Positions 43,841 through 62,893 of a DNA stretch of 64,000 nt are shown here, in pieces (positions within the stretch are counted from its first letter, which is position 1; each line of letters begins with the position of its first letter). The notes beneath the pieces were generated by a model. The model worked only from the letters and a program-made list of their open reading frames with translations. It was not told the origin of the DNA and did no database searches. The DNA is from Calothrix sp. NIES-4101 (GTDB taxonomy: Bacteria; Cyanobacteriota; Cyanobacteriia; Cyanobacteriales; Nostocaceae), in NCBI GenBank assembly GCA_004296455.1, contig AP018280.1, positions 4,340,001 to 4,404,000 of the forward strand, given 5' to 3'. The translations under genes and the position numbers were made by a program.

Positions 43841-44602
43841 TTAAAGAATTAGACACACCTTTCTATATTTCCTATGTTGTCCAATATAACTAATGTTGTA
43901 GTCACCAATCAACGCAACATCATAAGGACCTGGTTCAAAGTCGAGTTTATTTTCTTTCTTTGCTTTGTCGAAGTGGGGGAATACCCAGTCACGGATTGCG
44001 TCGTTAGCAATGTGGTGACCCAAGGATTGCGATACACCACGGAAACCTTCGCAACGAAGAGGAATAACTGGTTTGCCAATTTCTTTGGCAGTCTTCTTCG
44101 CTACTGCTTCGATGTCATCCCCAATCAAACCGATGGGACACTCAGATTGAATTGAGATACCCTTATTCAGTGGGAAAAGTTCATCGATTTCGTGGATGAG
44201 TTTGACGAGTTTTTTGTCACCACCAAATACGATATCCCGTTCTTGGAAGTCAGAGGTGAAGTGCATGGTACCGAAAGAATCGACACCAGTTTTACCTACG
44301 TAGTAGTTACGACGACCAGACCAAGACCAGTAACCACAACCAACAGGACCGTGGCTGATATGAACCATGTCTTTAATCGGCCCCCAAACCACACCCTTGG
44401 AACCTGCATATGCACAACCACGAGCGGTCATTACACCAGGAACGGATTTGATGTTTGACTTAACGCCGCAATCAGATTTGCCTTCTTCATGGACGTTGAG
44501 GTGTTTTTGGCGTTTTTTCTTAGATTTATCAGGATAAGCTTCAAGAACTTCGCTAATCAGCTTCTGATTTTCTTCTACAAGATTCTTGTCGGGAGGTGTC
44601 AT
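43841..44602 (-). CDS. nifD: Nitrogenase MoFe protein alpha chain, N-terminal part, interrupted
   Basis: Codons 1-237 are clear NifD: P-cluster ligands C63 ([11 protein letters not shown]), C89 ([11 protein letters not shown]) and C155 ([11 protein letters not shown]), plus the H196-H197 region ([11 protein letters not shown]). After [10 protein letters not shown] (junction near 43892) the sequence leaves the family and reads 16 unrelated codons to a stop. The FeMo-cofactor Cys and His ligands and about half the protein are therefore missing here. An RBS (GAGG) precedes the ATG. Either a developmentally excised element separates the two halves, or the gene is dead. The rest of nifD would lie beyond the left edge. 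Confidence 0.93.
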
Positions 44603-44790
44603 ATTTGCCTCTGTTACTTGTAATTAAGTATGTGGGGATAATTGCTTGTTACGTCTGAATGTTAAGAGAAGGGGGAAGAGGGAAGGGGAAGGTGGAAGGC
44701 GAGAGCAACATTTGCTCCTCTTTGTCTTCCTGATATTTTTATCTTCCTGATCTTCCTAAACTTCCTTTTCTCCTTTTCCTACATTGCTAG
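44603..44790 (-). other. nifH-nifD intergenic spacer with purine/pyrimidine-rich imperfect hairpin
   Basis: About 188 bp with runs such as GAAGGGGGAAGAGGGAAGG facing CTTCCTTTTCTCCTTTTCC around a central GAGAGCAACATTTGCTCCTC, which can form a long imperfect stem. CTTCCTGAT-type short repeats are also present. In other heterocystous cyanobacteria a structured nifH-nifD spacer is thought to affect message stability. Confidence 0.5.
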
Positions 44791-44897
44791 TTATTTGGTA
44801 GCTTCAGCAGGCTTACCGATGATGTCAGCGTGCTTGGTGTCGTCATCCAAAATACCGTATTCAATCAACAATGCTTCCAAATCATCCATTTCCATTG
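44791..44897 (-). CDS. nifH: Nitrogenase iron protein, C-terminal end only
   Basis: Minus-strand codons read [20 protein letters not shown], then [16 protein letters not shown] and TAA at 44791-44793, the end of a NifH of the type with a KPAEAT tail. Upstream of the TPM codon the frame becomes [12 protein letters not shown], unlike NifH, so the break is near 44895-44900. The ATPase, the 4Fe-4S cysteines and all other motifs are absent. A serine recombinase gene begins 69 bp further on, as expected for an excision element inserted in nifH. Confidence 0.88.
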
Positions 44898-44965
44898 GTG
44901 TTGACTTTACAAGGGGGATAGACAAAGGTACGATCGCCTTGTAGGGTTTGTAGGACGCGATCGTA

Positions 44966-46294
44966 ATGCGGGTAGGTTATGCGAGGGTAAGTACTGGGGA
45001 ACAGGATGATGCGTTAATCCAGCAGGTATCAAGATTGGAAAAAGCCGGTGCCGTAAAAATATATTCGGATATTAAGTCAGGGAAATCCAGTAATCGTAAC
45101 GAATTTAATAAAATGCTGGCACTTTGCCGTCAGGGAAAGATAACAGAGGTGGTGGTTACTAGAGTTGATAGGTTAGCCCGATCGGTAATGGCGATATCGA
45201 AGGCGATCGCATTATTTGAGGAAATGGATATCAAGCTAGATATTTTAGACGCGCCAGTTGAAGACATATCGAACCCTTTCTCGAAGTTTTCCATTAACCA
45301 AATGGGAGCGCTAGCCCAATTTGAAAGTGACCTATTACAAAACCGGGTAAAACATGGATACGCCTATTTCCGGGAGCAATGCAAAGCGCCTCCGCAACCA
45401 CCGTTTGGCTATGTACGAGTGAATGAAAAGTATGAACCAGACATGACGGTGCGGGAATGCGGAAAAACTAACTGGGTTGTAGCTAGAGAAATAATTGATT
45501 GGTTTTTGTCCAATAGGGCATCTGTGAGGAAAGCAATCCAATGGATACATGATACTTATGGATTAAGATTCTCGACTACTGGTTTTACTAATTGGATTAA
45601 AAATCCTACTTTGCGGGGGCATACTCGCTACAATGCCAAGTTCAACAACAATCGCCCTGAGAAATGGGATATTCGCTTGGATACCCACCCAGCACTTATC
45701 GATGACCAAATCTGCAAAGAAATCGAGTTAGTCTTGGACAATAACAAACGTCGATGGGGTCAAAATACCAAAAGTAAAGGCATTTTGTTGTTATCAGGGC
45801 AGGTTGTTTGTGGGTGCTGTGGGAGTAAGTGCTACGCCAGATCGCGCACTCGCTTTTTTACTTGCAAGAAACGAGCAAGCTATGGCAATAGTTACTGCAC
45901 CAATAAAAAACGTATCTCCGTTGAGGCAGTATGCGATGCAGTGGACACAGAATTGACTAAATGGGCGATCGCACTGCGGGATTATGCCCTCTCTGACGAA
46001 CCACAGGAAGCACCCGAAGTGTTGGAGTTGCGAACAACATTAGAAAATTTACAACGATTGCCACAAAACGAAGCGATCGATGATGCAATTGCAAAAATCA
46101 AAATCCAAATATCCCAGTACAAAAAGCCAGTACCCGATATGGCATTGGTGGATGAGTGGGTCGAAACCTTCTCCGACCCAGTATTTTTGAGAACAATCCC
46201 CGAACTAGACCGGGCTAATCTGTACCGCAGGTTTGTCCGATCCGTCACCATCTTGGACGGTAGCGTTACTGCGATCGCCCTCAACAATATCTAA
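44966..46294 (+). CDS. Large serine recombinase (XisF-type), nifH-side element
   Basis: A 442-residue protein. The resolvase domain opens [15 protein letters not shown], with the nucleophilic serine at about position 9, and continues [20 protein letters not shown] and [21 protein letters not shown] recombinase domain follows ([34 protein letters not shown]). A zinc-ribbon ([10 protein letters not shown]...C...C) precedes the C-terminal coiled part. The family excises the fdxN element in Anabaena (XisF). Its place 69 bp inside the nifH break suggests it excises this element. It is transcribed away from nifH. Confidence 0.88.
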
Positions 46295-46826
46295 GTCTAA
46301 GTTAGCCAGGTAGAACCGAATTCTGTTTTCCGGAAGGTGTTTAACTTGGCGGTATCGTGTCGCCAATCTGCGGAGTCGTGAGGGGAAAGATTCGTATTGC
46401 ATCGTTCTGTCTGTGGCGTTCTTTGTTTAGGTTAATTGATTGTTGAGGAAATTTTGTTAGTGGCGATCGCTTTAGCGCTGCCGTACCCGCGCATTGGCTG
46501 TAAGTCTTGCGATTACTTGGTGTTCGGTGATTAGCATTGCCCATACCATCCACTTAAAATCAGTGTCCCAAGTACTTGTTAAGGCAACTATCATTACCCA
46601 GTTTTGTTACTGCAAGGCTTCTACTATGTAGACTGCTATTGAGAGATACGGAGGTTAGAGGGCATTGGATGGCTTATTAATGGGTAAAATCGAGTTCGTT
46701 AGGCTAGCTCGGTCTATTGACGGAACAGGAAAACTTCAAGACATCGCTATTAACGAAAAGCAGGGTCTTTTGACATTTATGAGAGAAAATGTTTCCAGTA
46801 CTGAAACTATTTAAAAACTAATATTA
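46295..46826. other. Spacer after the recombinase, with one possible small ORF
   Basis: No known gene. A 44-codon plus-strand frame at 46680-46814 (MGKIEFVRLARSIDGTGKLQ ...) lacks a good RBS and has no recognised family. A HIP1-like site lies near 46463. The rest shows nothing I can name. Confidence 0.35.
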
Positions 46827-47592
46827 TTAGTTATGGACACAAGGAGACGCGATGAATTGATTGATACTTTGTGTTGGTTGGTCAGGAATATAAAGATTTA
46901 ACCATTTGGTAAAAATCTCATCCCGTCCATCTTTGGGTTCGACAAATTCATACACCCGTTCCCGCTTCCCCCTACTTCCCAATCGTCCCACATAGGACAA
47001 ACTCACCCCCAATTTATCTAACAGGGTGTGAACAATTGCCATCGGAGTCATCCCCTCAGACACGGAAATCCCCAAGTAATTTTTAATAATGTACCGATTC
47101 TCAACAGCTACCTGTTTAAGTTTCAGTGAAGCAGCATCGGAACCACGAAACATCACCCCAGGTGTTAGGAAATAGCGAATATTCAAATCCTCCAACATCA
47201 ACACCTTAGCCAATAGGAGCGATCGATTAAAATCCGGCTTCCAAATCGCATTTTCACCAGCTTCAATTTGCATCTTTGCTGTAGCAGCATCCCTTGCAGG
47301 AAGCAGCTCTCGTCCCAAAGTCATGAAATAATGCAACCGCAATTGAGGGTACCAACCATCGTCATCCCTCCAAACCAGTATAGTGGTCACTTCAACCCCA
47401 TAACGTTGTTGCAGCAATGCTTTTCGCTCCTGATACCTCTCAATCTTCGTCTTATTTTTCTTGTCTTGTAACTTTTTTAGCCCAGACTCCGAAATATCCT
47501 CCGCATCTGCCACAGCTTCGTATTCATTAAGCTTTAATTCACGGGATATCAGCTTGACCTCTTCAAAAATCCCTTGACTTTCAACTTCGGGA
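46827..47592 (-). pseudogene. CyRepA1-like plasmid replication protein, C-terminal fragment cut by an IS
   Basis: About 250 codons ending in a TGA at 46827-46829. Landmarks are KLISRELKLNEYEAVADAED, ISESGLKKLQDKKNKT, RDDDGWYPQLRLHYFMTLGR and NAIWKPDFNRSLLLAKVLML, which I recognise from the C-terminal region of the large cyanobacterial CyRepA1/DUF3854 replication proteins. The N-terminal primase/helicase part is missing. At about 47593 the sequence passes into the inverted repeat of an insertion sequence, and no continuation is seen on its far side. Such proteins occur in nif/hup excision elements and plasmids. Confidence 0.7.
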
Positions 47593-48738
47593 CATCTTGC
47601 ACCTGGAAATATGAATGTCAAAACCATGACTACGTGCAAGGGGAGTTAGCCGTTGAATATCAAGTAAAAGAAGATACACAATTATATGTGGAAAAATAGA
47701 TTCAAGGGCAGATTGTGCAGCCTGACCCCAATCAGGTGGCGATGCGCCCTGAAAATGGAGATAAGTCCAATGGGCAATGAGGTAAGCAGTCAGTGAAAGG
47801 ATAAGCCAGCGATACATACCCAGCAGAGTCCCTTGCCCAAAACGGTGTAAGCCAAAACGATGCTTTGCAGTTTTAAACCACCCCTCAATCTGCCACCGAC
47901 GCTTGCCCCACCACTTAAGAGTAGAAGCTTTAATTGGACGAGTAGACAAAACAAAGCGTTTTTCTAGTTTGCCATTATCGCGTTTTAAGTAATACCAAGA
48001 AACGGTAACGGGGAAATTTAAACCAAATAAATAAACCTGTTGACCCTGTTGATGTAAACGTCTTAAAAATCTGCCATCAGCCAACTTACGACTACTAGAT
48101 ACACCTGTAACAGCATGATATTTAAGCCGACGTACACCCTCAAGGAATTCTACACTGCCAAAGGCTGTGTCAGCTAAAATAATTGTTTGAAAATGTTGAG
48201 TTAAAGAAAGAGGTAAACGTTTAACCAGTTTGAGCCCAAGCATTGCAGGGGAAGGAGTTCCCTTACCTCGCCAAACACGAAAACTCCAAGGAATGCGCCA
48301 TTGTCCTATTACCAAATAAACTACGACTAGATGGAGACCACGCTTACCATTATAGACTTTGATTAAATCACTAAATTCTGGGAATTTGCCACGTTTTTCT
48401 AAAGTCGTCAGGTCAATAATTACTTGTAAAAATGGTCTGCGCCCTTTGCCTGATGACGATAATGAATTGATAACTTTTTGTAATACTGAAGAGCGAATTA
48501 TCCGAATCATTTCCCTTGTTGACCAAGGATTGATATTTAAAAATCGACTGATTGCGCTTGGGGATTTTGTCTGACTATGTTCAGGTAATGGGTGTCCTTG
48601 TGCCTCTAAGAATAACGCCAACATCGCTTCTAGGTTATCTTTTTGGTACTGCGTCGGCATCAGTTCTTTGAGGGTGTACACTAAATCTTGGGCGTGAGCA
48701 AGCATTTTCTTAGTGCTTTGTTTAATCAGATATTTCAC
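47581..48738 (-). CDS. DDE transposase of the IS701/IS4-like element
   Basis: A 385-residue protein with the RNase-H-like DDE pattern: VIIDLTTLEKRGKF (first D), TIILADTAFGSVEFLEGVRR (second D), and the family's C1 region KRRWQIEGWFKTAKHRFGLH holding the catalytic E. The C-terminal end (SRCKMS) is encoded by the inverted repeat itself, and the stop codon lies about 10 bp beyond it in the flanking replication gene. The terminus thus depends on the insertion site. Apparently intact. Confidence 0.88.
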   Translation of the reverse strand: MKYLIKQSTKKMLAHAQDLVYTLKELMPTQYQKDNLEAMLALFLEAQGHPLPEHSQTKSPSAISRFLNINPWSTREMIRIIRSSVLQKVINSLSSSGKGRRPFLQVIIDLTTLEKRGKFPEFSDLIKVYNGKRGLHLVVVYLVIGQWRIPWSFRVWRGKGTPSPAMLGLKLVKRLPLSLTQHFQTIILADTAFGSVEFLEGVRRLKYHAVTGVSSSRKLADGRFLRRLHQQGQQVYLFGLNFPVTVSWYYLKRDNGKLEKRFVLSTRPIKASTLKWWGKRRWQIEGWFKTAKHRFGLHRFGQGTLLGMYRWLILSLTAYLIAHWTYLHFQGASPPDWGQAAQSALESIFPHIIVYLLLLDIQRLTPLARSHGFDIHISRCKMSRS

Positions 48739-48972
48739 GCCTTTTCTCTCATGTTTTCGGTTGCCAATGCAAATCTGACAATTTCATGGCGGTCATCCCC
48801 TTTGAAACGTACAGCATCTTAGCATCTGTTATTTTGGCATCCGAACCCGTAGTATTAGTTAGCTTGTAGTATTATTAATTACCTTTTTTTTGCTTTCGAC
48901 AAGCCTTTGCTTCCTGTAAGATTTTGCATCATTATATTCGCTTTTACGTGTTTACACAGCTAGGTGCAAGAT
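47593..48972 (-). mobile_element. IS701/IS4-like insertion sequence, about 1.38 kb
   Basis: Ends share an inverted AGGTGCAAGAT: CATCTTGCACCT at 47593-47604 and AGGTGCAAGAT at 48962-48972. One transposase gene fills it. It has cut the CyRepA1-like gene. The exact outermost base and target duplication were not settled. A short element at 52311-52422 carries the same ends. Confidence 0.75.
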
Positions 48973-49114
48973 ATGAGTTTACCCTGCCCAACTGTTCAGA
49001 TATAACAGTTGGGGTGTTGAATGTAAGTTAGATTTATTCCTTGTAAATTACAAGAATAGTTTGCAGGGATGTGAATCTGTTCATTGCCCAAAATGGAGGC
49101 AGAAGGAATAAACC
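48973..49114. other. Short spacer between IS and monooxygenase
   Basis: Contains a small inverted repeat CCAACTGTT...AACAGTTGG at about 48990-49014 that could be an operator or hairpin. It also holds the likely promoter of the monooxygenase gene. An AGGAGGCAGAAGGAA-like purine stretch precedes its ATG. Confidence 0.4.
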
Positions 49115-50602
49115 ATGTCCATAGAACATTTCGACGTTGTGATTGTCGGAGCAGGACTTTCCGGAATCGGCACAGCTTATCAGCTACAGAGCAAGTGCCC
49201 AGGAAAAAGCTACATGATTCTGGAAGGAAGGGACTCTATGGGTGGAACCTGGGACCTCTTCCGCTATCCAGGCATCCGCTCCGATAGCGATATGTATACA
49301 CTCGGCTATAACTTCAAGCCGTGGAAAGAAGCGAAAGTGATCGCCGATGGACCGTCAATCCTCAAATATGTTCAGGAGACTGCCACAGAGAACGGTATCG
49401 ATAAACATATCCGCTATGGTTATCTCGTCAAGAAAGCTACTTGGTCAAGCACCAATTCCACATGGACGATTGAAACTCAACGCAAAGGTACAGATGAAAC
49501 CATCTGCTTTACCTGCAATCTCCTGCTGATGTGTTCTGGCTACTACAGCTATAAAGGTGGCTACACCCCCGAATTCAAAGGTCGCGATCGCTTCGAGGGC
49601 AAGATAATTCATCCGCAAAAATGGGACAAGAGTCTCGATTATCGCGGTAAAAAGGTGGTAGTCATCGGTTCTGGAGCAACCGCAATCACCTTGGTACCAG
49701 AAATGTCTAAAGATGCAGAACATGTAGTGATGCTGCAACGGTCACCAACTTATCTTTTTTCACGCTCCGACGAGGATGCAATTGCCAACTTTTTGAGGAA
49801 GTTTTTGCCTGCCAAACTGACCTATCTCATCATGCGTTTGAAGTACATCGCACTTCAACAGATAACTTATCAGACTATGCGTGCTAGACCGGAGATGAGC
49901 AAGCAGAAACTGATCGACATGGTGCGTCAAGAACTTGGTGCTGACTATGATGTTGAAACACATTTCACTCCGCGCTACAATCCTTGGGATCAGCGTCTGT
50001 GTCTAGTGGCGAACAGTGACCTGTTTCAGGCGATTAAGTCAGGCAAGGCATCGGTTGTCACCGATAATATAGAGACTTTCACTGAAAAGGGTATCCTCCT
50101 AAAATCGGGTCAGGAACTAGAAGCCGATATCATTGTCACGGCAACGGGACTCAATCTCCTTGTACTTGGTGGTGTAAAATTTGAAGTTGATGGTCAGCCA
50201 GTTGACTTCTCGAATACTTATGTCTACAAGGGCATGATGTATTCCAATGTACCAAACCTTGTTTCGGTCTTTGGCTACGTCAATGCCTCCTGGACTCTAC
50301 GTGCTGACCTGATAGCGGAATATATTTGCCGCATCATCAATCACATGGATAAGACTAGCTCTCCTCAATGTACGCCACGTCTGCGGGATGAAGAGCAGAA
50401 TATGACTGCACGTCCCTTGGTTGAGAATTTCTCCTCTGGCTACATACAAAGGGTGATACACTTGTTACCGAAGCAAGGCGATCGCGAACCCTGGACTGGT
50501 GCTCAAAGCTACAAAGGTGACAAAAAAATGGTTCGTTGTGAGCCGATTGAAGACGGTGTGCTGGTATTCAGTTCTGCCCCAGAAATTCAGAAGCATTCGT
50601 GA
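49115..50602 (+). CDS. EthA-like flavin-containing Baeyer-Villiger monooxygenase
   Basis: A 495-residue enzyme very close in pattern to mycobacterial EthA: FAD-binding VVIVGAGLSGIGTAYQLQ, then SMGGTWDLFRYPGIRSDSDM, the NADPH-binding VVIGSGATAITLVPEM, and a Baeyer-Villiger fingerprint variant FEGKIIHPQKWD. Later come YNPWDQRLCLVANSDLFQAI and VTATGLNL. It would insert oxygen next to ketones using NADPH, FAD and O2. It stands alone between two insertion sequences, on the opposite strand to both. This suggests capture by the element or horizontal gain. The substrate is unknown. Confidence 0.88.
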   Translation: MSIEHFDVVIVGAGLSGIGTAYQLQSKCPGKSYMILEGRDSMGGTWDLFRYPGIRSDSDMYTLGYNFKPWKEAKVIADGPSILKYVQETATENGIDKHIRYGYLVKKATWSSTNSTWTIETQRKGTDETICFTCNLLLMCSGYYSYKGGYTPEFKGRDRFEGKIIHPQKWDKSLDYRGKKVVVIGSGATAITLVPEMSKDAEHVVMLQRSPTYLFSRSDEDAIANFLRKFLPAKLTYLIMRLKYIALQQITYQTMRARPEMSKQKLIDMVRQELGADYDVETHFTPRYNPWDQRLCLVANSDLFQAIKSGKASVVTDNIETFTEKGILLKSGQELEADIIVTATGLNLLVLGGVKFEVDGQPVDFSNTYVYKGMMYSNVPNLVSVFGYVNASWTLRADLIAEYICRIINHMDKTSSPQCTPRLRDEEQNMTARPLVENFSSGYIQRVIHLLPKQGDREPWTGAQSYKGDKKMVRCEPIEDGVLVFSSAPEIQKHS

Positions 50603-50652
50603 TAGCTGAGAAGCGAGTTTATTTGATATACACGTGACTGATGAGAAAACTT

Positions 50653-52035
50653 CTAAGAAACACATTCGTTAGGTGTTGAAATAGGGATGAGTTCTAAGCC
50701 AAAAGCTTGAGCTTTTTTATTGAGGTTTTTGAGCGTGCGCTCTCGATATTGTTGCTCGTAAGCATCAATACCAGGGTCAGTATAGCGATCGCCAGATGTC
50801 CAAAGGCGATAGAAAATACGTGCCAATTTATGAGCAGTAGCAGTAATCGCCTTGGGAGCGCCCATTCGTGATTGCATACGACGGTAATATGCACCCAAAG
50901 CAGAATGACTGCGACATAGAGTTTGTGCAGCCATACGAAAAGCGTTGGCGGCTCGATTGACAACAGAACGAGTTTTAGAACTTTTAACTTTACCGCCAGT
51001 AATACGACTACCAGGGCATAGACCTAACCAGGAAGTAAAGTGCTTAACACTTGGAAAACGAGAAGCGTCTAAACCGACCTCAGACAGTAATATCAATACA
51101 GTTAAAGCACCAAAACCATCAACAGCTGTAAAATCAACTCCACTAATACGGTATAAATGTGTACGCAGGTCAAATTGCGGCGCATTACCAGGTTGCTTTT
51201 TACCCCGGCGTTTAGGTTTGGCTAAAGGCTTTTGTTCGACATCAACTTTATCAGTAAATGATGCTAAACATTGCTCGACTTGGCAATCGCATTTCTGGAT
51301 TTGAGTCTGATAAAACTCGTAAAGCTGTAGTTCCTGTTCGAGGATAAAAACTAATTCGGGACGATAATTTCCAGTCAAGGAAGCTGCTATTTCTTCCAAG
51401 CTAGCCTTAATGCGCCCATCCTTAAAAGATGCCAATTTAATTGGGTTGCGTTCCCCAGAAACAATTGCGCGAATGATGCTCAAGCCAGTAGTGCCTGTAA
51501 TATCGCTGATGACTCGATGTAATTGTATATTCATCTGTGTTAATGCTTTTTGCATCCTCTGTACATGGGCGCAAGCACTTTTAATCAAATTATCTCTTTG
51601 ACGTATATAGCTACGAAGCATACATATCTGGTCTTCTGGGCGAAATGAACCTGACAGTAAACCATAAGTATGTAACTGTTGTAGCCACTGACAATCTAAG
51701 ACATCGGTTTTACAACCTGGTACAGTTTTGACGTAGTGAGCATTCACCAACTTGACTTCAAAACCGCGACTTTCTAAAACTTGGAATACAGGTATCCAAT
51801 AGACCCCCGTTGATTCCATTGCGATAGTCTCAACACCACATTGCTTTAACCAATCTGCCATTGCATATAAATCAGCAGTAAAACAAGCAAAACTACGTAC
51901 ATTCTCCTTATCTCTTCCCAAGGGTATACTTACCCAGTGCCTATCTGCACCAATATCAATGCCTGCTGCATTTGGGTTTATTAGTGAAAAATTCGCATCT
52001 AAATTCTGTTTTTTAGACTTTTGGGGTTTTCTCAT
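50653..52035 (-). CDS. IS110-family transposase (DEDD)
   Basis: A 460-residue protein. The N-terminal RuvC-like domain shows AAGIDIGADRHWVSIPLGRD, ETIAMESTGVYWIPVFQVLE and KTDVLDCQWLQQLHTYGLL (the D-E-D-D residues). The C-terminal Tnp domain shows VDGFGALTVLILLSEVGLD, FTSWLGLCPGSRITGGKVKS and the conserved Ser-containing NRAANAFRMAAQTL. IS110 elements use a bridge RNA from a non-coding end. Here only about 50 bp separate the gene from the monooxygenase stop. Intact by reading frame. Confidence 0.9.
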   Translation of the reverse strand: MRKPQKSKKQNLDANFSLINPNAAGIDIGADRHWVSIPLGRDKENVRSFACFTADLYAMADWLKQCGVETIAMESTGVYWIPVFQVLESRGFEVKLVNAHYVKTVPGCKTDVLDCQWLQQLHTYGLLSGSFRPEDQICMLRSYIRQRDNLIKSACAHVQRMQKALTQMNIQLHRVISDITGTTGLSIIRAIVSGERNPIKLASFKDGRIKASLEEIAASLTGNYRPELVFILEQELQLYEFYQTQIQKCDCQVEQCLASFTDKVDVEQKPLAKPKRRGKKQPGNAPQFDLRTHLYRISGVDFTAVDGFGALTVLILLSEVGLDASRFPSVKHFTSWLGLCPGSRITGGKVKSSKTRSVVNRAANAFRMAAQTLCRSHSALGAYYRRMQSRMGAPKAITATAHKLARIFYRLWTSGDRYTDPGIDAYEQQYRERTLKNLNKKAQAFGLELIPISTPNECVS

Positions 52036-52262
52036 CAGAAGGATTGAGTTGCATTACTTGTTAGCGGTATCATGCCTGGGTGGGGCAAATAAATCTAATC
52101 TTCTAAACGGGATAGTGACAATCACTTCACCAATATTGCCGCCAACAGCACCCAGAACCAGGCTTATATACGGGCGCAAAAAGCACCATTGTTAACACGG
52201 TTGTAGCTGTCATGACACCAATAAGAGTGTAATATTTATTGACCTTAACGCTCCCAATACTG
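52036..52262 (-). other. IS110 upstream end or relic of a membrane-protein gene
   Basis: Minus-strand frames read YYTLIGVMTATTVLTMVLFA, then after a one-base shift LVLGAVGGNIGEVIVTIPF and RRLDLFAPPRHDTANK with a TAA at about 52063. This looks like the last segment of a transporter broken by a frameshift. The same DNA could instead be the non-coding left end of the IS110 element, which would encode its bridge RNA. I cannot choose between these. Confidence 0.35.
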
Positions 52263-52263
52263 T

Positions 52264-52472
52264 GTTTCTTTTATTTGTTGCTAGTGGCGTAGTCCGCTAG
52301 TTGGAGGCTTATATCTTGCACCTGGGTGAAAAACCAAGGTTTCTTGAGAATTACTAATCATCAAAACCTTAATTTTGGGTTGAGAAAACCAGTTTTTTAG
52401 GTCTTGTTGAGAATGGTGCAAGATGTGAGCGCCCAACTAGCCGCGTTTTTCGCCGCTAGCAACAAATGAAAC
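52264..52472. repeat. Nested palindromic MITE sharing ends with the IS701-like element
   Basis: The outer inverted repeat GTTTCTTTTATTTGTTGCTA matches, with few differences, the complement of 52451-52472. Inside it ATCTTGCACC (52313-52322) and GGTGCAAGAT (52416-52425) are the same ends as those of the insertion sequence at 47593-48972. The core has no gene. It may be a non-autonomous derivative mobilised by that transposase, sitting in an older palindrome. Confidence 0.6.
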
Positions 52473-52590
52473 TAACACCAATTCGCAATACTCGCTGTCG
52501 CGTAGGCGCAAGCTACGCAATTAAAAAATCTAGATTTAGCAATGGTTCCGTAGATTCCATCTGTAGCCTAATTTTAGAGAATTGGTATAA
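52473..52590. repeat. MITE-like inverted-repeat element, about 118 bp
   Basis: TAACACCAATTC at the left is matched inversely by GAATTGGTATAA at the right. An inner hairpin of the GCGTAGGCGCAAGCTACGC type is a frequent cyanobacterial palindrome. It directly abuts the preceding palindromic repeat. From 52591 to 52950 I see only a small hairpin (GTATAGTTCAAC...GTTGTGCAACTATAC, 52624-52660) and HIP1 sites. Confidence 0.55.
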
Positions 52591-52950
52591 CACATTTTTC
52601 CAAAAGAAATAAAAGCTTTGCTGTATAGTTCAACGTCTGCTAAGTTGTGCAACTATACTGCATTTTTCGTGGATAATTACTCCACGACCACTTTCAATAC
52701 TGGTGCTAGTAGTGGTGTAAATAGTTTTCTACTATGTTTGGAAGGAAGTTTTTTAAAAATTTAGAGTGAAAAGGAATAGCGATCGCCCACAGGTTTCTCT
52801 TCACTAACTTTAAATTTAACAGTACTTTAAAATCCAGCAACAAAAGCGATCGCGTAGCAACCCCTCTGAAGTATCCTGTAGTAAATCAGAAAGAATATCG
52901 CAGTCGTAAGCTGACGTGCAGCTAAATTGTATAAATAAAAAACATCAAGT

Positions 52951-53018
52951 TATTGTAGTGCGGAGAGAAGTTTCCGGGGAGATGTTCTTCACGGAAAACT
53001 CCGGGGCATCTTGCCCGC
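52951..53018 (+). repeat. Hairpin repeat, copy 1 (inverse partner at 55918-55985)
   Basis: GGGGAGATGTTCTTCACGGA followed by AAACTCCGGGG recurs in opposite orientation at 55918-55985 with few changes over about 48 bp. Each copy can fold through AGTTT-type and AAACT-type arms. The two copies flank the nifB piece and its recombinase. Confidence 0.6.
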
Positions 53019-53055
53019 GTCTAATACACAAGTTAAATGGGCCACAGCTTATTAC

Positions 53056-53190
53056 AACTGTTGACGTAAAGAGTTAATATACTTGCTAATTTCCCGTACT
53101 CTTCTCAGCAAATTTAAGGCTGCTTCGGCTGTACGGAGGGCTTACGAGCTTTACCGCGTTTTTTTACTCTTGAAATTTAGCGATTTCCGT
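53056..53190 (-). pseudogene. Relic of an unrecognised gene end next to the nifB 3' break
   Basis: Minus-strand codons read RVKKRGKARK, then after a frameshift ALRTAEAALNLLRRVREISK and YINSLRQQL with a TAA. The basic-then-helical character looks like the C-terminus of a DNA-associated protein, but no family is recognised. It lies in the foreign DNA at the 3' break of nifB. Confidence 0.3.
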
Positions 53191-53273
53191 TCGCGGGATT
53201 GTAAACCAGCCCTTGACTTCCAAAACTGGCTGAAAACTTTGGTGGTGGGTGGTTCTGACAATTTATTGATAGC

Positions 53274-54163
53274 GTAAATTCTTGGCTGCGGTCTTCTCCC
53301 AATAAACCTACCGCATCTGCACGACACTGGCGACAGTGGCGCATCATTTTCATGTTACCAGAACAGCTATCTTGTACTGATTTCAATTCCGAAGATGTGG
53401 GACCACGCTGTCCAGTTAAGCCAAAGTGAGTGCCATGTTCAGGTGCGGAAATCAGGGGCATAATGTTGTGCAGAAATGCGCCGTTTTCGCGAATCATCTT
53501 GTTAACTTCAACAAGATGTTGGTCGTTGATTCCCGGAATCATGACTGAGTTAACTTTACAGAGAATGTCTGCTTCTCTAAGTGCTTGCAAACCTTCCATC
53601 TGTTTTTCTAACAGAATTTTGGCACCTTCAACACCTCTATAACGCTTACGTTTGTAGTGAACCCAGGAATAAATTTGTGCGCCTATTTCAGGGTCAATTG
53701 TATTAAGAGTAATCGTAACGTGGTCAATATTTAGTTGTTTGATTCTATCTATATATTCGGGCAGCATTAAACCGTTTGTTGATAAACAGAGTTTAATGTC
53801 TGGTGCTTTGTCAGCAATTAATTCAAAGGTTCGGAAAGTCTTTTCAGGATTAGCTAATGGGTCGCCAGGGCCTGCAATTCCCAATACTGTCATTTGGGGA
53901 ATTTTGCTAGCAACAACTAAGACTTTGTGTGCTGCTTCTTCGGGTGTTAGCAATTCGCTAACTACACCGGGACGGCTTTCGTTTGCACAATCATATTTAC
54001 GGTTGCAGTAGTTGCATTGAATATTGCAGGCTGGTGCAACTGCAACGTGCATTCTTGCGTAATGATGGTGTGCTTCTTCACTATAACAAGGATGCTTGGC
54101 GATGCGTTCCTTGATTTTTTCTTCCATTTCCACGGTGGCGCTGTTGCCTGTGCATCCGCAAGT
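53274..54163 (-). CDS. nifB: Nitrogenase cofactor maturase NifB, middle part, interrupted on both sides
   Basis: About 296 codons of clear NifB. It starts at the conserved [12 protein letters not shown] and includes the radical-SAM cluster ligands [17 protein letters not shown], then [30 protein letters not shown] and the Cys-rich [18 protein letters not shown]. After RSQEF (about 53276) it becomes unrelated sequence ([14 protein letters not shown]). Upstream of TCGC (about 54163) it becomes the leader of a recombinase gene on the other strand. The true start and the C-terminal NifX-like domain are both missing, so nifB is split by two separate insertions. Confidence 0.92.
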
Positions 54164-54203
54164 TAGGTATAATGCTTTTGGCTTGCCATGAAAAACTGTA
54201 ACT

Positions 54204-55613
54204 ATGCGTGATTTATCAAGGGCTTTAGGGTATTGTCGCGTTTCCACCCAACGACAAAATACAGAGGGACATGGGTTGGAGCGCTATATCGATCGCTTAA
54301 AACAATATGGCTTGACTGATGAACAGATTCATTGGGATATCGAATCGGGTGCTAGCGAGAAGCGTAAGGGATATAATCGCGTTTTGGAACTAGTGCGATC
54401 GCATCAAATTGATCAAATTATTGTGCCATGTTTTGACCGATTCACGCGATCGGCTTTGGGCTGGGAAGTCGCCCGCCAGGAATTACAAGAGTTTGGGGTG
54501 GAGTTACTTTTCCTTGATGGGGGAGGATTAGACCTGGAAACTCCTGAAGGTTTGTTTACTTCGCGAATATTAGCGGCGATGTCTGCACAAGTTCGAGATA
54601 AAAATAGATACAACTCAATTCAAGGGCATAGATACTTTCAAGAAAAGCGGAAAATTTATCGTGCTGTCTTTGGTTTTGTGAAGGAAGGAGATAGTGTCAA
54701 ACCCAATCGCGCCGAATATCGAAACAGTGGCAAATCCTATGCTGATGTTGCGATCGAATGTGTGTCCATGTTTATTGAGACTGGGGAATTGGCGAGAACT
54801 ATCCGCCGGATGATCGATAAATACGGAGTTGTGCGCCTAGGTAATTCAAGCTGGGAAGATTTCCCGCGAGATATCTCAAAATTTCGCAAGTGGCTAGAGC
54901 ATCCCCAATTATGCGGCATGGTTCGATACTATCCTGATGATGCGAGTAAAACACTGATACTTGAATCCAACCATGAGAAGATTATTAGTGTTGAGCAACA
55001 CAACCAAATTAAAAATTTACTGAGTAAACACCCACGGGCAAGGCGAATTTACCCAAATAATCCCCTAGTGGGTATTGCTTTTTGTGGGGTGTGTGGCGCG
55101 AAAATGGAGAAAGTCAGCAATACTTATGGGGGTAAGCGTTACGAGCATTTGCGCTGTACTGCTGCATATCCACCACCCAGAAAAACACAGTCATGTCAAT
55201 CACGAATCTATTTCAAGTTAACTGATGCCGTTGCTGCTTGTATAAAAAAGTTAAGGGAGAGGGCAGAAGCGATCGCTAATAATATTCCATCGGTACATAT
55301 TCAAGATATACCTCCTGAAATTATTGAGTTGCAGCAGCAGATTTTAACTTTGAAACGGTTAGATGATCCTGATTTGCAAAGTGTAATCTTAAATAAGGAG
55401 CAGCGATTAGAAAGCTTAATTAAATCGTCTCAGCTAAATGTTGTTGCTGATGAGATGCGAGGTCGAGTTTTGCGAGGGCTGGCATCGAACAAGGAGTTCT
55501 GGGATGCAGCTAGTCCGGCTGAACTGACTGCCATTTTTCATGAATTGGTTGAGTCTTTAACCTGTTTGGAGCTTGATGGAGTCCGGGTTTTCTCTGCACA
55601 GCTTAAAATCTGA
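54204..55613 (+). CDS. Large serine recombinase (XisF-type), nifB 5' element
   Basis: A 469-residue protein. The resolvase domain has [20 protein letters not shown] (nucleophilic serine about residue 14), [20 protein letters not shown] and [20 protein letters not shown]. The recombinase domain has [15 protein letters not shown] zinc ribbon has [11 protein letters not shown]...LRCTAA. A coiled segment follows. It differs clearly from the recombinase at 44966-46294, so the two elements are expected to use different core sites. Its start overlaps the reverse of the nifB-side leader, placing it hard against the junction. Confidence 0.88.
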
Positions 55614-55917
55614 TTTCTTTCATCCTCTGGTAAAGAAGCCAAATACCGCTCTGCCATTGCCCATAAAATGTCTGAGACTTTTTTGCTGATTACCATTGTT
55701 CTGTGTCGGTCGTTAATTTTAATTTAGTTCATGGCTCAAAAAAATCTGTTATGGAATAACCGATCGCACTTGGTAATTTGATATCATGTCCGAAACCAAA
55801 ACTTGTGATTAAAAATTCTCTGCTTTCCCCTATCTCCTCATATCCCCATAGGCACAGATGATATTAAGGAATCATGTAAAAATAAGTAGTGTAAGCGTCT
55901 TGCTTGCTATTTCCCAA

Positions 55918-55985
55918 AGGTGGGCTTTCCAACCCCGGAGTTTTCCCTGAAGAACATCTCCCCGAAAACTCCTCTCCACAATACT
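55918..55985 (-). repeat. Hairpin repeat, copy 2 (inverse partner at 52951-53018)
   Basis: Read on minus, GAGTTTTCGGGGAGATGTTC then TTCAGGGAAAACTCCGGGG matches copy 1. Here the arms GGAGTTTTC and GAAAACTCC are perfect complements around a loop of about 18 bases, so it could act as a bidirectional hairpin. Confidence 0.6.
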
Positions 55986-56004
55986 GGTTCAATTTATTTT
56001 TACA

Positions 56005-56046
56005 CTTATACTTATACTTATACTTATACTTATACTTATACTTATA
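56005..56046. repeat. Hexanucleotide tandem repeat (CTTATA)7
   Basis: Seven perfect copies of CTTATA in a row. Read on minus they would encode alternating Tyr-Lys, but no credible gene surrounds them. Short tandem repeats of 7 bp are common in Nostocales; a 6-bp unit is less usual. Confidence 0.9.
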
Positions 56047-56927
56047 TGGATTTATTTTTATATAGATGTATGACATTACATAGTTGTGGATAATTTTGGA
56101 ATTTTGGACTACAAATAATCGCCACTTTTCCCATCCGCCCCAATCATCTCATCATTCTGCAATGCCAGATGTATTTCTACTCTTTAACAGATTGACAATG
56201 TTATTTTACTTGTGTATTTTCTCAAGTCTTTGTTATTTGAATACTTATCTCAACAATTGATACTATTCGCGATTTAATCTGTGATTTATTTTATGTAATC
56301 GTCTTAACCATTACTGAATAAGTATTCTAGGACAAGCTTCATGAAAACTTTAAGATTTCTTTGTGTTAACTTTAATTTTTTCAGTCAATTTTGTAGTTAG
56401 ATATCAAGTGCTGATTTTCTGTATTAATGAAGACAAAATTAATCTGTAATCATTCTTTGGATAGATACTTTTGTCGTTTGGTATATCATAGTTTTATAAA
56501 GGACAAAGTTTTATGAAGGGGAAAGTCTGTTTGACTTGATGACAAATCTACAAACCTTTATTCCTACTATTCCCAATTTGTCACTATTGTCTTCATTTAC
56601 CCCCGATATATGGTGTTTCCACAACAAGTGAGGTACATCAACCTCAGACTCTGGCTAGCGAAATCAGTATCTTCCAAAACACACCCTACTGAGTTCGGAA
56701 ACCATTAAGTAATTAAGCAAAATTAATTACACAGATATCCCAGTTGCAACTCTTGCCAATATTTCCGTTTGCTCACTTAGTAATCGAATATTGATTTTTG
56801 AAGAATAGTAAATTTGAGTGATGAAGGTTAAAAAGAGGGTAGTAATACTGCATAGTGACATGTTTATTTACACATTTACCTGCTTCTAAAATTAATTGCC
56901 ATAGAAAACAAGTAAAGAGGAAGACCC

Positions 56928-57044
56928 ATGGAAATCGCAAATATCACACTCGCAATCGTCCACTGGGATATCCCCCTAGTATTCCAAGAATCTAGGGGAA
57001 GTCACCCAGTAATAGTTGCACATCAATGTCAGCAAATTCATTAG
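56928..57044 (+). CDS. Possible small peptide upstream of the export genes
   Basis: 38 codons, MEIANITLAIVHWDIPLVFQ then ESRGSHPVIVAHQCQQIH. A reasonable RBS (AGAGGAAG) lies 5 bp before the ATG. It lacks the double-glycine leader that peptidase C39 exporters cut, so a precursor role is only a guess. It could also be a leader peptide or a chance frame. Confidence 0.3.
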   Translation: MEIANITLAIVHWDIPLVFQESRGSHPVIVAHQCQQIH

Positions 57045-57098
57045 TAATTAAAACTAAAACTGTTACATCTGTTACACCTTGGCGGGATCGCAACAGAT

Positions 57099-57326
57099 GT
57101 GCAAATTGCCCACGACTACAACTACTGGATAATTATTATGCCATATTTTGAGTGTCAACAACAATTAAATAGAGGTTTGATACTTGATGGGTATTACCCT
57201 TCGATGAACACCACATTAAGTATTTTTCATCGTATACGGATTTACAATTTATACCCGCATCTACAGCCAGAATATCGACAGTGGATGGAAATTTTGCTCT
57301 TGGCTAATACAAATAAATCACCTTAG
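57099..57326 (+). CDS. Hypothetical small protein
   Basis: 75 codons (MQIAHDYNYWIIIMPYFECQ ... LLLANTNKSP), aromatic-rich, 82 bp before the ABC transporter gene and on the same strand. No good RBS and no recognised family. A second Met (residue 14) gives a 62-residue version. No GG cleavage motif. Confidence 0.28.
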   Translation: MQIAHDYNYWIIIMPYFECQQQLNRGLILDGYYPSMNTTLSIFHRIRIYNLYPHLQPEYRQWMEILLLANTNKSP

Positions 57327-57408
57327 TTTCCTTTGTTGAACTTCTACACAGCCCCATTTTTCGGGTGCTTGTGTTCTGTGACTAGTAAATAACAATGGAG
57401 ACGAGAGT

Positions 57409-60400
57409 ATGCTATCAATATTTTCCCAGGAAGATTTGTGTCAAAAAATTGACCAGGTTTTAGGTAGTAAGCTGGAAGAAAGGGATTTGCAAAGCTGCGT
57501 GCAAACTACTCAAATCTTAGAACCACCAGTCGCCAAATTATTCTGGCAGCTACCAGAGGCTGAAAAAGGTATTTACATTGTCCTTGAGGGTAAAGTTAGA
57601 CTCTTAGACCAATTTGAAAACTTAATTACTACCCTTGGTACAGGGGCGACATTCGGGGAAGTGACTCTGTTTGAGCAATCAGAATTTATCCCCTACATGG
57701 CAAAAGCTTCTCATAACTTAAAACTTTGCTACCTGTCGCAACAAATATTGCATCCATTGCTGGACAAATATCCCCAAATAGGCGATCGCCTTTACCATCG
57801 GGCAGAACTTTGGGATTTACTGTTGTTGTGTCGTCAAAATATCCAATTCCCCCAGCACACATCACAAGTACAAGGGTTTCTCACAGCTTTATCGATACTT
57901 GAGCGTCATGATTTAGACAGTGTAGAGGAAATACCTGTACTCAAAGGTGGCAAACTATGGTTACTGTACCGGGGTAAATTGCTGCTATCTGATGGTAATT
58001 CTTACATACCAGGAAAAATCTATGTAGACTTTCCCCCGGAAAATTGCCAAGTACAACCACCAACCACTGCATATATTCTCAAAAATGCTGATTGGCAAAG
58101 CGCACTCCAACATTGTCCAGAATTAGCCGAGTTTGTCAGCCCCCAACAACGTCCACTCTTGCACCCAGAGCCAAAACCACGTCCGAAGCGTAACAAGATC
58201 GAGCGTTTGGACTCATCCCCAAAAATTATTCCCTTTCCTGGACAAGAACAACCATTACCACCACAACCCAAGAAAACCCGTCCTTATTTTCCCAGTCCCA
58301 AGGTGCAAGCGGGGCATTGGTGGGTGCGTTTTACCCATCAATATCCCTTTTATGCTCAACATAGTGCCTCTGACTGTGGTGCTGCTTGCTTGGTGATGAT
58401 TGGTCGTTATTGGGGTAAGCATTTTAGTGTGAATCGCTTGCGGGATATGACTAACGTCGGTCGTAGTGGTGCATCTTTAGCGGCGATCGCAACAGCTGCG
58501 GAAAGTTTGGGTTTTGCCACTCGTCCGGTGAAAGCAACTTTGGATAAATTCGCCGAACAATCTTTACCTGCGATCGCTCACTGGGAAGGTAATCACTTTA
58601 TCGTTGTCTATGAGATTAGCAAAAAGCAAGTAATTGTTGGCGATCCTGCCCTGGGTCAACGCCAACTTACCCCCAAGGAATTTACCGCAGGTTGGTCTGG
58701 CTATGCATTACTTCTACAACCAACATCCCTACTCAAAGATGCTCAAAATCAGGATGTGGGCTTGTGGAAATTTTTTGAATTAGTTAAACCCCACTCGAAA
58801 GTCTTGATCGAAGTTTTTATGGCTTCGGTGCTAATTCAGATATTTGGATTAGTCACTCCAGTATTCACCCAGTTATTACTAGACCGAGTTCTGGTGCAAC
58901 GCAGCATTGCCACCCTGAATGCTGTTGGTGTGGGCATGATTGTTTTTGGGTTATTTAGCATTGCCATGAACGGAGTGCGAACATATCTCCTCAGTCATAC
59001 AGCCAACCGCATTAGCATTTCCCTATTGGTAGGTTTTATTAAACATACCTTTCGCTTACCCCTTTCCTATTTTGAATCCCGTTATGTCGGGGACATCATC
59101 TCCCGTATCCAAGAAAATGAAAAAATTCAAAGCTTCCTAACCGGTCAAACCCTGTCTATTGTCCTGGATATGCTGACATTAGTCGTCTATCTGGCGCTAA
59201 TGTTCTGGTATAGCTGGAAAATGGCATTATTTGTCCTCGTCACCGTACCACCATTTTTTATTCTGGCACTGGCTAGTACAGGGATTTTGCGCCGCATCTC
59301 CAGAGAGATTTTTAATGCTGGAGCCAAAGAAAACAGCTATATTATCGAATCCCTCACAGGTATTCGCACTGTTCGCTCATTAGCTATTGAACAAACAGTA
59401 CGCTGGCATTGGGAAGAATTACTGAATAATTTAGTCAAAAAAACCTTTAATGCTCAGGTAATTGGCATTCGCCTCTTCATGCTCAGTGGTGCGATTAATA
59501 CCTTTACCAGTACAGCATTAATGTGGTTTGGAGCATGGCAAGTCATTCAAGGAGAACTCACCGTTGGCCAATTAGTTGCCTTCAATATGTTGGTGGGTAA
59601 TGTTTTGGGGCCTTTCCAAAGGTTTTCCCAACTCTGGAATGAATTCCAAGAAATTATTATTTCCACCGAACGCATTAATGATGTCCTGGAAGCAGAACCA
59701 GAAGAAGATTTACATCATAAACCCCGTAAGACTCTAGGTCGATTGCGCGGTAACATCCGTTTTGATCATGTCACCTTCCGCTATCACCCGGAAAGTAAAA
59801 CTAACGTCCTTGAAAATATCAATTTTGAAATCCAGCCAGAGCAAATGGTAGCTGTCGTCGGCCGCAGTGGTTCCGGGAAAACCACCCTGAGTAAATTAAT
59901 TTTAGGATTATACCCAGCGACAGATGGCAAAGTCTTAATTGATAATCATGATGTGGCGGGAATTTCCTTGCGATCGCTTCGTTCTCAAGTTGGAGTTGTC
60001 GATCAAGATACTTTTTTGTTTGGTAGTACCATCCGAGAAAATATTGCCATCGCCCACCCAGAAGCAACCCTCGACGAAATTATCCAAGCCGCACAATTAG
60101 CCGGAGCCGATGAATTTATCCAGCAATTACCCTTAGGTTACGATACCCAAATCGGTGAAGGTGGGGGAATGCTCTCCGGGGGACAACGCCAACGATTGGC
60201 GATCGCTCGTGCTTTACTGGGAAACCCCCGTTTATTGCTGTTTGATGAAGCTACCAGCCATTTAGATACAGAATCAGAACGGATTATTCAGAACAATCTC
60301 AAAACCATTCTCAAAGGGCGCACCAGTATAATTATTGCCCATCGTCTTTCCACTGTTCGCAATGCTGACTTAATCCTGGTTTTAGATCGTGGTGTCTTGG

Positions 60401-60486
60401 TGGAAAGTGGTACTCATGACGAATTAATTGCCAAACAAGGCCATTACTACTACCTGAATCAACAACAGCTAGCTCAAGTCGGTTAA
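57409..60486 (+). CDS. Peptidase C39 ABC exporter with N-terminal cyclic-nucleotide-binding-like domain (HetC-like)
   Basis: A 1025-residue protein. About 40-160: cNMP-binding-like fold (YIVLEGKVRLL; GTGATFGEVTLFEQSE). About 305-435: peptidase C39 with catalytic C323 (SASDCGAACLV), H396 (GNHFIVVYE) and D412 (GDPALG), all present. About 460-740: six-helix ABC permease. About 785-1020: ATPase with Walker A GRSGSGKTT (about 818), MLSGGQRQRL, LLLFDEATSHLD and IIIAHRLSTV. It should cut double-glycine leaders and export the peptide. The layout is that of HetC, but the HlyD partner downstream points to a bacteriocin-type or other peptide export system rather than hetC-hetP. RBS GGAGACGAGAG. Confidence 0.9.
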   Translation: MLSIFSQEDLCQKIDQVLGSKLEERDLQSCVQTTQILEPPVAKLFWQLPEAEKGIYIVLEGKVRLLDQFENLITTLGTGATFGEVTLFEQSEFIPYMAKASHNLKLCYLSQQILHPLLDKYPQIGDRLYHRAELWDLLLLCRQNIQFPQHTSQVQGFLTALSILERHDLDSVEEIPVLKGGKLWLLYRGKLLLSDGNSYIPGKIYVDFPPENCQVQPPTTAYILKNADWQSALQHCPELAEFVSPQQRPLLHPEPKPRPKRNKIERLDSSPKIIPFPGQEQPLPPQPKKTRPYFPSPKVQAGHWWVRFTHQYPFYAQHSASDCGAACLVMIGRYWGKHFSVNRLRDMTNVGRSGASLAAIATAAESLGFATRPVKATLDKFAEQSLPAIAHWEGNHFIVVYEISKKQVIVGDPALGQRQLTPKEFTAGWSGYALLLQPTSLLKDAQNQDVGLWKFFELVKPHSKVLIEVFMASVLIQIFGLVTPVFTQLLLDRVLVQRSIATLNAVGVGMIVFGLFSIAMNGVRTYLLSHTANRISISLLVGFIKHTFRLPLSYFESRYVGDIISRIQENEKIQSFLTGQTLSIVLDMLTLVVYLALMFWYSWKMALFVLVTVPPFFILALASTGILRRISREIFNAGAKENSYIIESLTGIRTVRSLAIEQTVRWHWEELLNNLVKKTFNAQVIGIRLFMLSGAINTFTSTALMWFGAWQVIQGELTVGQLVAFNMLVGNVLGPFQRFSQLWNEFQEIIISTERINDVLEAEPEEDLHHKPRKTLGRLRGNIRFDHVTFRYHPESKTNVLENINFEIQPEQMVAVVGRSGSGKTTLSKLILGLYPATDGKVLIDNHDVAGISLRSLRSQVGVVDQDTFLFGSTIRENIAIAHPEATLDEIIQAAQLAGADEFIQQLPLGYDTQIGEGGGMLSGGQRQRLAIARALLGNPRLLLFDEATSHLDTESERIIQNNLKTILKGRTSIIIAHRLSTVRNADLILVLDRGVLVESGTHDELIAKQGHYYYLNQQQLAQVG

Positions 60487-60557
60487 GCCAGGAAAATTGT
60501 AGGGACGCGACATGTTGTATCTCTACACCTGCATTTACTATTTTCAGGAATAGAACC

Positions 60558-62105: not shown

Positions 62106-62171
62106 CCTGCGTTATGGAGAGAGGTTCTTTATATTCCAATTCTCATCTACCCAATCCACAGGAGCAAGATA

Positions 62172-62369
62172 ATGCATCCAATTGAGCTAATGAAAAAATA
62201 TAGTTGGTCTTACGGCAGACTAGCCGCAGAGTTTGGAGTTTCAGAAGCTGAAGCAAGACGATGGGGATTTAGAAAAACTGCTACTAACTACCGAAATCCA
62301 CCGTTAATGGCTTACAAACTAGCAGAAAAAATTGATCAGGAATTATCAACTATGTTTGCATCTGCTTAA
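62172..62369 (+). CDS. Small HTH-like protein
   Basis: 65 residues with a strong RBS (AGGAG, 8 bp before the ATG). The segment WSYGRLAAEFGVSEAEARRW reads as a helix-turn-helix of the kind that senses or binds DNA, followed by PLMAYKLAEKIDQEL. It follows the adaptor gene by 66 bp and ends in front of a hairpin, so it is probably the last gene of the transcript. A regulatory role in the export cassette is inferred. Confidence 0.7.
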   Translation: MHPIELMKKYSWSYGRLAAEFGVSEAEARRWGFRKTATNYRNPPLMAYKLAEKIDQELSTMFASA

Positions 62370-62387
62370 CATTATTGAAATACTTAA

Positions 62388-62414
62388 AACCCGGCTTCTT
62401 GAAGAAGTCGGGGA
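62388..62414 (+). terminator. Hairpin after the export operon
   Basis: CCCGGCTTCTT directly faces GAAGAAGTCGGG (11-12-bp stem with one mismatch and almost no loop), 20 bp after the small HTH-like gene. There is no good T-run, so it may be a palindromic repeat acting as a terminator. Confidence 0.5.
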
Positions 62415-62627
62415 GATTTCAGAAAAAATTAGGAAAAAAACTAGTAAGTATGCATAAATTCATTTATTCTTCTGTTTAAAGTACAACCTCTTCATGCAGT
62501 AGCCCGGTACAAATTTCCAGATATAAACTCAATCTTGCCATTTTTAATCTATCTTCTGGTAAGAATTATGGATAATTTTATCTATTCTACATAAGTAGCT
62601 GGGTGGAATTAAAGCAAACCAGATAAC

Positions 62628-62695
62628 GGGTTTCGGCTACGCTCAACCCTCGTTCTGTAGTTGTTTTGAGCATTGAGCGTAGTTGAAATGAGCCC
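62628..62695. repeat. Palindromic repeat in the spacer before the PpiC-like gene
   Basis: GGGTTTCGGCTACGCTCAA is matched inversely by TTGAGCGTAGTTGAAATGAG. The rest of 62415-62893 is AT-rich and shows no gene; the promoter of the PpiC-like gene must lie here. Confidence 0.55.
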
Positions 62696-62893
62696 AGTCT
62701 AAATGCATCTTACAAATAATTCCGCCTTTCTACTTAGCACCATTGTTACTACCAAAGTGACCTAGACCCCACTTGCAAATAGAGTTTTAATTAGAAACGA
62801 TAAGCCAAGAATATTCTTATTAATTTGTTGCACGTCTCCACATCAATTTTGTCTCAAGTATTTAAGCGAAATTACTATTAGAGAGTTAAGATT

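Follow-up and report, generated by a model that had tools for sequence, protein, structure and literature searches.

Interruption elements of heterocystous cyanobacteria are known from nifD, fdxN, hupL, nifH, nifB, nifK and other genes, and the available text of Hilton, Meeks and Zehr (2016; PMC4874684) describes giant examples of up to nearly 1 Mb, a highest count of 11 elements per genome and seven cases of opposite-facing gene halves, which are labelled there as likely mis-assembly. Here, we analysed a window of 64,000 nucleotides from Calothrix sp. NIES-4101 that holds pieces of nifB, nifH and nifD, and followed the nif operon beyond it. The window corresponds to C1:4340001-4404000 (positions without this prefix are those of the window), where C1 is the contig of 7,235,916 bp in a genome of 7,586,835 bp and six contigs. 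Our analysis indicates that this is probably the only nif operon in this heterocyst-forming Calothrix, kept scrambled on the vegetative chromosome and broken at nine recombinase-flanked junctions. Judging from the sequence, the locus is most likely a functional scrambled operon, with seven excisions and two inversions required to restore it.

The initial annotation had reported pieces of nifB, nifH and nifD in the window, all on the minus strand, and similarity and Pfam matches agree. These are a middle piece of nifB (53274-54161; Radical_SAM, E = 4.5e-25), the last ~35 codons of nifH (44791-44898) and about codons 1-237 of nifD (43892-44602; PF00148, E = 8.6e-39, profile positions 1-167 of 399). 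Its four abrupt ends were also real, at 54161 (nifB 5'), 53274 (nifB 3'), 44898 (nifH 5') and 43892 (nifD 3'), and the open reading frame around the nifB piece (53177-54247) runs past it into foreign DNA on either side. The pieces are two and not three as then described, with the nifB middle indeed standing apart and the nifH 3' end and nifD 5' half contiguous (43892-44898). The missing parts of the three genes, for which a search elsewhere had been suggested, were found on the same contig. In total, ten nif pieces and nine split sites lie within C1:4149872-4499588, and nifK to the outer nifH break spans 349,716 bp (~350 kb). We named the junctions b5m and bm3 in nifB, h12, h23 and h34 in nifH, d12, d23 and d34 in nifD, and k12 in nifK. 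The four open ends of the window thus belong to nine breaks in one operon, and the annotation was right to call the number of breaks extreme.

On the minus strand, the assembly places the nifK 3' end with nifE and nifN at and below C1:4149873, the nifD 3' end with nifK 5' at C1:4158486-4160078, a 39-bp micro-piece of nifD between the d23 and d34 elements at C1:4164808-4164846, the nifD middle at C1:4226413-4227030, then the two pieces inside the window (nifD 5' with nifH 3', and the nifB middle), and nifB 5' with its conserved upstream region at C1:4408459-4409084. On the plus strand follow nifH about codons 135-264 (H3; C1:4426358-4426738), nifB 3' with fdxN, nifS, nifU and nifH codons 1-49 (H1; C1:4480730-4484707), and nifH codons 48-139 (H2; C1:4499307-4499589). 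A dead duplicate of an intact nifBSUHDK operon, which the annotation had named as a possible outcome, was ruled out, since further copies of nifB, nifD and nifK were looked for in the genome and not found. nifB has a single additional match, a partial one at 26% identity. Apart from nifD and nifK, the genes that match PF00148 over its full length are nifE and nifN, identified by similarity to relatives' operons, and those at C1:1085558 and C1:4862295, which we take to be chlB and chlN. A further nifH, intact and stand-alone (318 amino acids), lies at C1:1620287.

Six of the nine junctions (b5m, h12, d12, d23, d34 and k12) have their partners in order on one strand, with elements of 4.7-157 kb between them. 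Within the window, the nifB middle ends on its 5' side at b5m (repeat TTGCGGATGCACAGG at 54147-54161; partner C1:4408459-4408473, minus strand), and the nifD 5' piece ends at d12, the next nifD piece lying 156.9 kb away (C1:4227023, minus strand). At the other three junctions a single plain excision is insufficient. The nifB middle ends on its 3' side at bm3 (repeat AGCCAAGAATTTAC at 53274-53287), whose partner is at C1:4480730 on the plus strand, and the nifH 3' piece begins at h34, whose partner is the plus-strand piece at C1:4426358-4426738; both pairs of partners are oppositely oriented. The h23 partners point in the same direction, but H2 lies beyond H3, so that this junction is permuted. 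As assembled, the h34 and bm3 sites lie inverted around a DNA segment, as in invertible switches, and recombination at opposite-facing partners would, in the present arrangement, invert rather than remove DNA. Site-specific interruption was therefore the right kind of cause for the annotation to invoke, and excision elements are indeed present; its several excisions nevertheless give an incomplete account, since two of the four window breaks (nifB 3' and nifH 5') have opposite-facing partners.

Each of the nine junctions has a recombinase gene (437-521 amino acids) at a distance of 31-269 bp, and all nine open reading frames are unbroken. Eight encode large serine recombinases (k12, d23, d12, h34, b5m, bm3, h12 and h23), which account for eight of the genome's 14 PF07508 matches, whereas the ninth, at d34, encodes an XisA-like protein beside the repeat GGGATTACTCCG. 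The Resolvase domain was found by Pfam in all eight serine enzymes, and Resolvase, Recombinase and zinc ribbon together at E<=1e-3 in seven, the zinc ribbon of the h12 enzyme falling below the Pfam cut-off. For the bm3 enzyme, the Resolvase match lies in its first 221 amino acids, the part scanned for domains, and a PF07508 match is found at its place. The d34 protein has a Pfam integrase match of 24.2 bits (cut-off 27.1) and owes its name to 78-85% identity with genes in loci L100-L105, which adjoin nifK there.

In the window, the h34 recombinase (44966-46294, plus strand; 442 amino acids; Resolvase, Recombinase and Zn_ribbon_recom) is 64 bp from the nifH break motif, and its best plasmid match among those listed is an annotated XisF at 28% identity. 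Enzymes 52-67% identical to it in G196, G103 and G105 sit beside direct breaks at the h34 position, on the opposite side of the junction, and a plain form of this break with related recombinases therefore exists. The b5m recombinase (54204-55613, plus strand; 469 amino acids) is 67% identical to that of h23 (C1:4499623-4501059, in segment S5). Relatives of the h23 enzyme are 82-87% identical in the best 10 of 12 loci from eight genomes (L238/L157 and L148/L179 being the same records), and in L139, L141 and L148 they lie directly beside the matching nifH end. The d12 enzyme has a 96% identical relative in the congener G002. Each recombinase presumably serves the junction beside it.

The junction ends were then compared. 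A short repeat is common to both ends at six of the nine junctions (b5m 15 bp, bm3 14 bp, h23 17 bp, d34 12 bp, d23 7 bp and h12 6 bp). For the other three, reading frame and arm spacing point to putative 2-bp cores, namely CC at h34, TT at d12 and AG at k12. The two ends of the h34 element are inverted-repeat partners, with a score of 17 that none of 300 shuffles reached, whereas wrong partners scored no higher than 9; d23 scored 14 (0 of 300 shuffles) and d12 scored 12 (1 of 300). The repeat GGATTACTCCG at a nifD break is presumably the XisA repeat. When the pieces were joined in silico with the chosen cores, NifH (295 amino acids), NifD (494), NifK (511) and NifB (485) were read without a stop or frameshift, and the rejoined NifH matches a relative at 99%. 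Codon comparison with G006, which covered four pieces, gave synonymous to non-synonymous changes of 19/2 in H1, 33/0 in H2, 27/4 in H3 and 72/22 in D2. Such mostly synonymous change, together with the open joined frames, is unlike what would be expected of dead pieces.

We modelled the possible routes with each junction taken as one recombination event. As a first step, h34 or bm3 gives an inversion, and h23 an excision, which releases the five segments from H3 to H2 as a 73-kb circle. If h34 goes first, bm3 turns into a plain excision of segments S1 and S3, and h23 into an inversion. The end state is a contiguous chromosomal nifK-D-H-U-S-B with the upstream region and seven circles (~323 kb), and the one-molecule routes consist of seven excisions and two inversions. 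Of the 120 possible orders of the five interleaved junctions, 80 remain intramolecular and include two inversions each. In the other 40, and in no others, h23 precedes both h34 and bm3; pieces are then stranded on the 73-kb circle, and intermolecular rescue would be needed.

The arrangement may be explained by two past inversions that interleaved the rest, leaving the h34 and bm3 partners opposite and the h23 partners swapped in order; these may have arisen by insertion of the elements followed by inversion, or by one inverted attP x attB reaction. In a differentiating cell, the h34 inversion (42 kb) would make that nifH joint and leave the two nifB halves pointing the same way. The b5m, bm3 and h12 junctions would undergo excision next, the bm3 event releasing a circle of about 62 kb made of S1 and S3 (about C1:4426748-4480730). 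The h23 inversion would join the operon half that runs promoter-nifB-fdxN-nifS-nifU-nifH to the remaining nifH and nifDKEN, while d12, d23, d34 and k12 would excise independently. That nine recombinases unscramble ten permuted or inverted pieces in heterocyst development, with two inversions and one constraint on order, is a proposal we favour, although less firmly than the scrambled operon itself. Recombination as such, its timing in the heterocyst and the sequence of steps are all part of what is proposed, whereas the sequence directly shows the pieces with their assembled orientation, the recombinase genes, the common ends and the frames of the joined genes.

The locus was also compared with other genomes. 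In the congener G001, the b5m, bm3, h12 and h34 sites are uninterrupted, that is, empty sites at these four junctions. To the right of S5, the chromosome from C1:4561156 is syntenic with the nif upstream flank in G006, a pattern that fits a flip confined to the inside, with the outer ends still in place. Apart from the ~1.1 kb immediately upstream of nifB, segment S2b (17 kb, from the nifB promoter side to H3) showed no synteny with other nif upstream regions at >50% identity.

Several points weigh against our explanation. The scramble is seen in one assembly, and the rearrangement is predicted from its sequence. Split nifH occurs in at least 16 other low-contig genomes (G032, G050, G054, G062, G068, G089, G090, G101, G103, G105, G185, G196, G202, G205, G207 and G212), and in all 16 the listed pieces follow gene order on a single strand. 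This count comes from sets of 14, 65 and 19 genomes, each including NIES-4101 itself, and leaves out the undecided G086 and G097; it is a lower bound, as the best four candidates per genome were scored in the set of 65. Given this uniform direct order, the present genome stands out, and either a recent event or an error is indicated. None of the other genomes compared showed this scramble, and in G001 the nifH-side h23 flank has no similarity to S2b. The whole operon at the end of the model is no evidence either, since any signed piece order would resolve; what counts instead is the fit of frames, ends and recombinases. Here too there are weaknesses. Joining points were chosen by visual inspection, guided by the known proteins. 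The d12 ends also share ATTAGTT, and a join there adds five bases and loses the frame, so that TT is the only core to preserve it; k12 has an alternative 4-bp join, TAGA, which is in frame as well, with one extra codon. This check of the two joins lowered our confidence in the scrambled operon very slightly and raised that in mis-assembly by as little. Furthermore, the end arms of six of the nine junctions are no more alike than chance, the shuffles out of 300 that reached the arm score being 30 for b5m, 296 for bm3, 149 for h12, 61 for h23, 141 for d34 and 101 for k12.

The most serious competitor is that NIES-4101 carries nine ordinary direct excision elements in gene order, and that chimaeric joints inside S1/S3 and S2b/S5 produced the apparent inversions. 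Beyond the uniform order in the other genomes, this is favoured by the insertion sequences in S1 and S3, which have identical or near-identical copies elsewhere and so also count against the scramble, by the sequencing of this strain with short reads and ~8-kb mate pairs only (as given in part of PMC8634303), and by the judgement passed on the seven opposite-facing cases in PMC4874684. On the other hand, both inversions as errors would need repeats between S1 and S3 and between S2b and S5, and none of useful length was found. In a self-comparison of 850 kb, which contains no N, neither pair shares a repeat of >=150 bp at >=80% identity, and exact matches of >=20 bp are limited to one of 29 bp (S2b/S5). 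S2b has no repeat at the 150 bp/80% threshold with the rest of the 850 kb, and the link through S2b alone already makes h23 non-canonical. For a 6-kb query across H3, two of the four own-genome matches were listed and neither is a second copy of S2b; as the query mostly met a common unrelated gene family and nifH itself, it was uninformative. Table 1 of PMC8634303 gives NIES-4101 as 7.59 and 7.24 Mb, complete, with 0 gaps and 7 scaffolds (against the six contigs of the assembly used here), and the same source reports that assemblies were checked by read-pair mapping and cites DRA012644 and DRA012713 as accessions of the raw reads. Assembly error at the breaks, which the initial annotation had foreseen as an objection, is therefore less plausible for the inverted joints in light of the repeat search, and we regard it as unlikely, with a small probability left to it.

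Less probable still is a reversible switch, in which the inversions already flip in vegetative cells and no one-way developmental step takes place. Inversions lose no DNA in the model and could in principle be reversed; the one at h23 leaves both its products on the chromosome, along with the recombinase gene of this junction in S5. However, the finished sequence has no sign of a mixed population, and large serine recombinases usually depend on a directionality factor for one of the two directions. The weakest alternative, a dead and decaying nif locus in which fixation was lost and the breaks are damage, could point to the real erosion in the congener G002, where nifH appears internally shortened next to nifU and nifD, but is very improbable given joined frames of four genes without stop or frameshift with the chosen cores, mostly synonymous change in the four compared pieces and nine unbroken recombinase genes. 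In G002, contig C198 (L146:17495-19813) carries nifU, ~100 bp of the nifH 5' end and then directly the nifH tail with nifD, so that nifH looks internally deleted. This congener retains another nifH on C38, which matches PF00142 over its full length.

The remaining parts of the window belong to the elements. Segment S1 (44899-53273) has the h34 arm and recombinase at its nifH-side end and the bm3 end on its nifB side. It contains an insertion sequence of 1388 bp (47592-48979) with 100% identical copies at C1:4628437, C1:4630949 and C1:4843696, the last aligned over 1386 bp. The b5m element occupies 54162-64000 and continues to about C1:4408467 (14.3 kb in all), and the d12 element occupies 1-43891 out of 156.9 kb (about C1:4227031-4383892). 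ARAGORN found no transfer RNA genes in C1:4160001-4500000. Inside the short XisA-type nifD element, an elongation-factor-G-like gene, so called from its N-terminal sequence, lies at C1:4161905-4163995; its relative in G001 (85% DNA identity; L144:376-2835) is on the nifB-bearing contig.

Outside the operon, hupL is split too (C1:4127744-4128301 and C1:4134020-4135108), with an XisA/XisC-like recombinase gene between its halves (C1:4132393-4133880), whose product resembles XisA-like proteins of other genomes. Two cytochrome oxidase subunit I genes (coxA) are cut after ~110 codons (C1:5322723-5323058, L245; C1:6509075-6509398, L247), each directly beside a serine recombinase gene, and these are probable further interruption elements. 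A second hydrogenase small-subunit gene is N-terminally incomplete (C1:3925166-3925852, L249), and a serine recombinase gene lies ~1.1 kb from it (C1:3926993-3928348).

Should our explanation hold, a bacterium stores an essential operon in scrambled form and can fix nitrogen only after nine site-specific joinings, of which two are inversions. Bacterial development would then use DNA rearrangement not just to remove inserts but also to restore gene order, and the locus would offer a tractable system for several recombinases acting side by side and in order. What is new is the three junctions beyond a single plain excision and the number of elements. No description of an inverted or permuted nif operon was found in the literature searched, which excluded preprints and the majority of subscription journals. 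This strain's fragmented nif cluster of ~350 kb may reportedly have been described elsewhere, and given these limits novelty is not assured.

How does the locus compare with known systems? It works like the interruption elements of heterocystous cyanobacteria, yet as a variant, since the gene halves do not lie in the same direction and in order at every junction. As far as the available text of PMC4874684 goes, the same genes are affected and a serine or tyrosine recombinase lies at the element end. The nifH break near bp 147 is probably its 150 variant, that near bp 405-417 probably its 405 variant, and the nifD break at GGATTACTCCG probably its 1355 variant. Unlike those elements, nine fall in one operon here, with two junctions inverted and one permuted in the assembly, and the genome has at least 12 probable elements (nine nif, hupL and two coxA) against the maximum of 11 given there. 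Some of the opposite-orientation cases in PMC4874684 may be real members of the same class, which suggests re-examining assemblies whose opposite-facing gene halves were ascribed to error. In Bacillus subtilis sporulation, the SP-beta/spsM system, as described in part of PMC4191935, likewise rebuilds a gene by excision in the differentiating cell, if the elements here are excised; it has one element and one plain excision, unlike the nine junctions of this operon.

The scrambled genes of ciliates, whose segments rejoin at short shared sequences, offer a further parallel. Those of the Oxytricha type have permuted and inverted segments that are rejoined in development (parts of PMC2394655 and PMC4684698). 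Unlike in ciliates, a recombinase gene stands beside each joint here, so that the logic is alike whereas machinery and origin differ.

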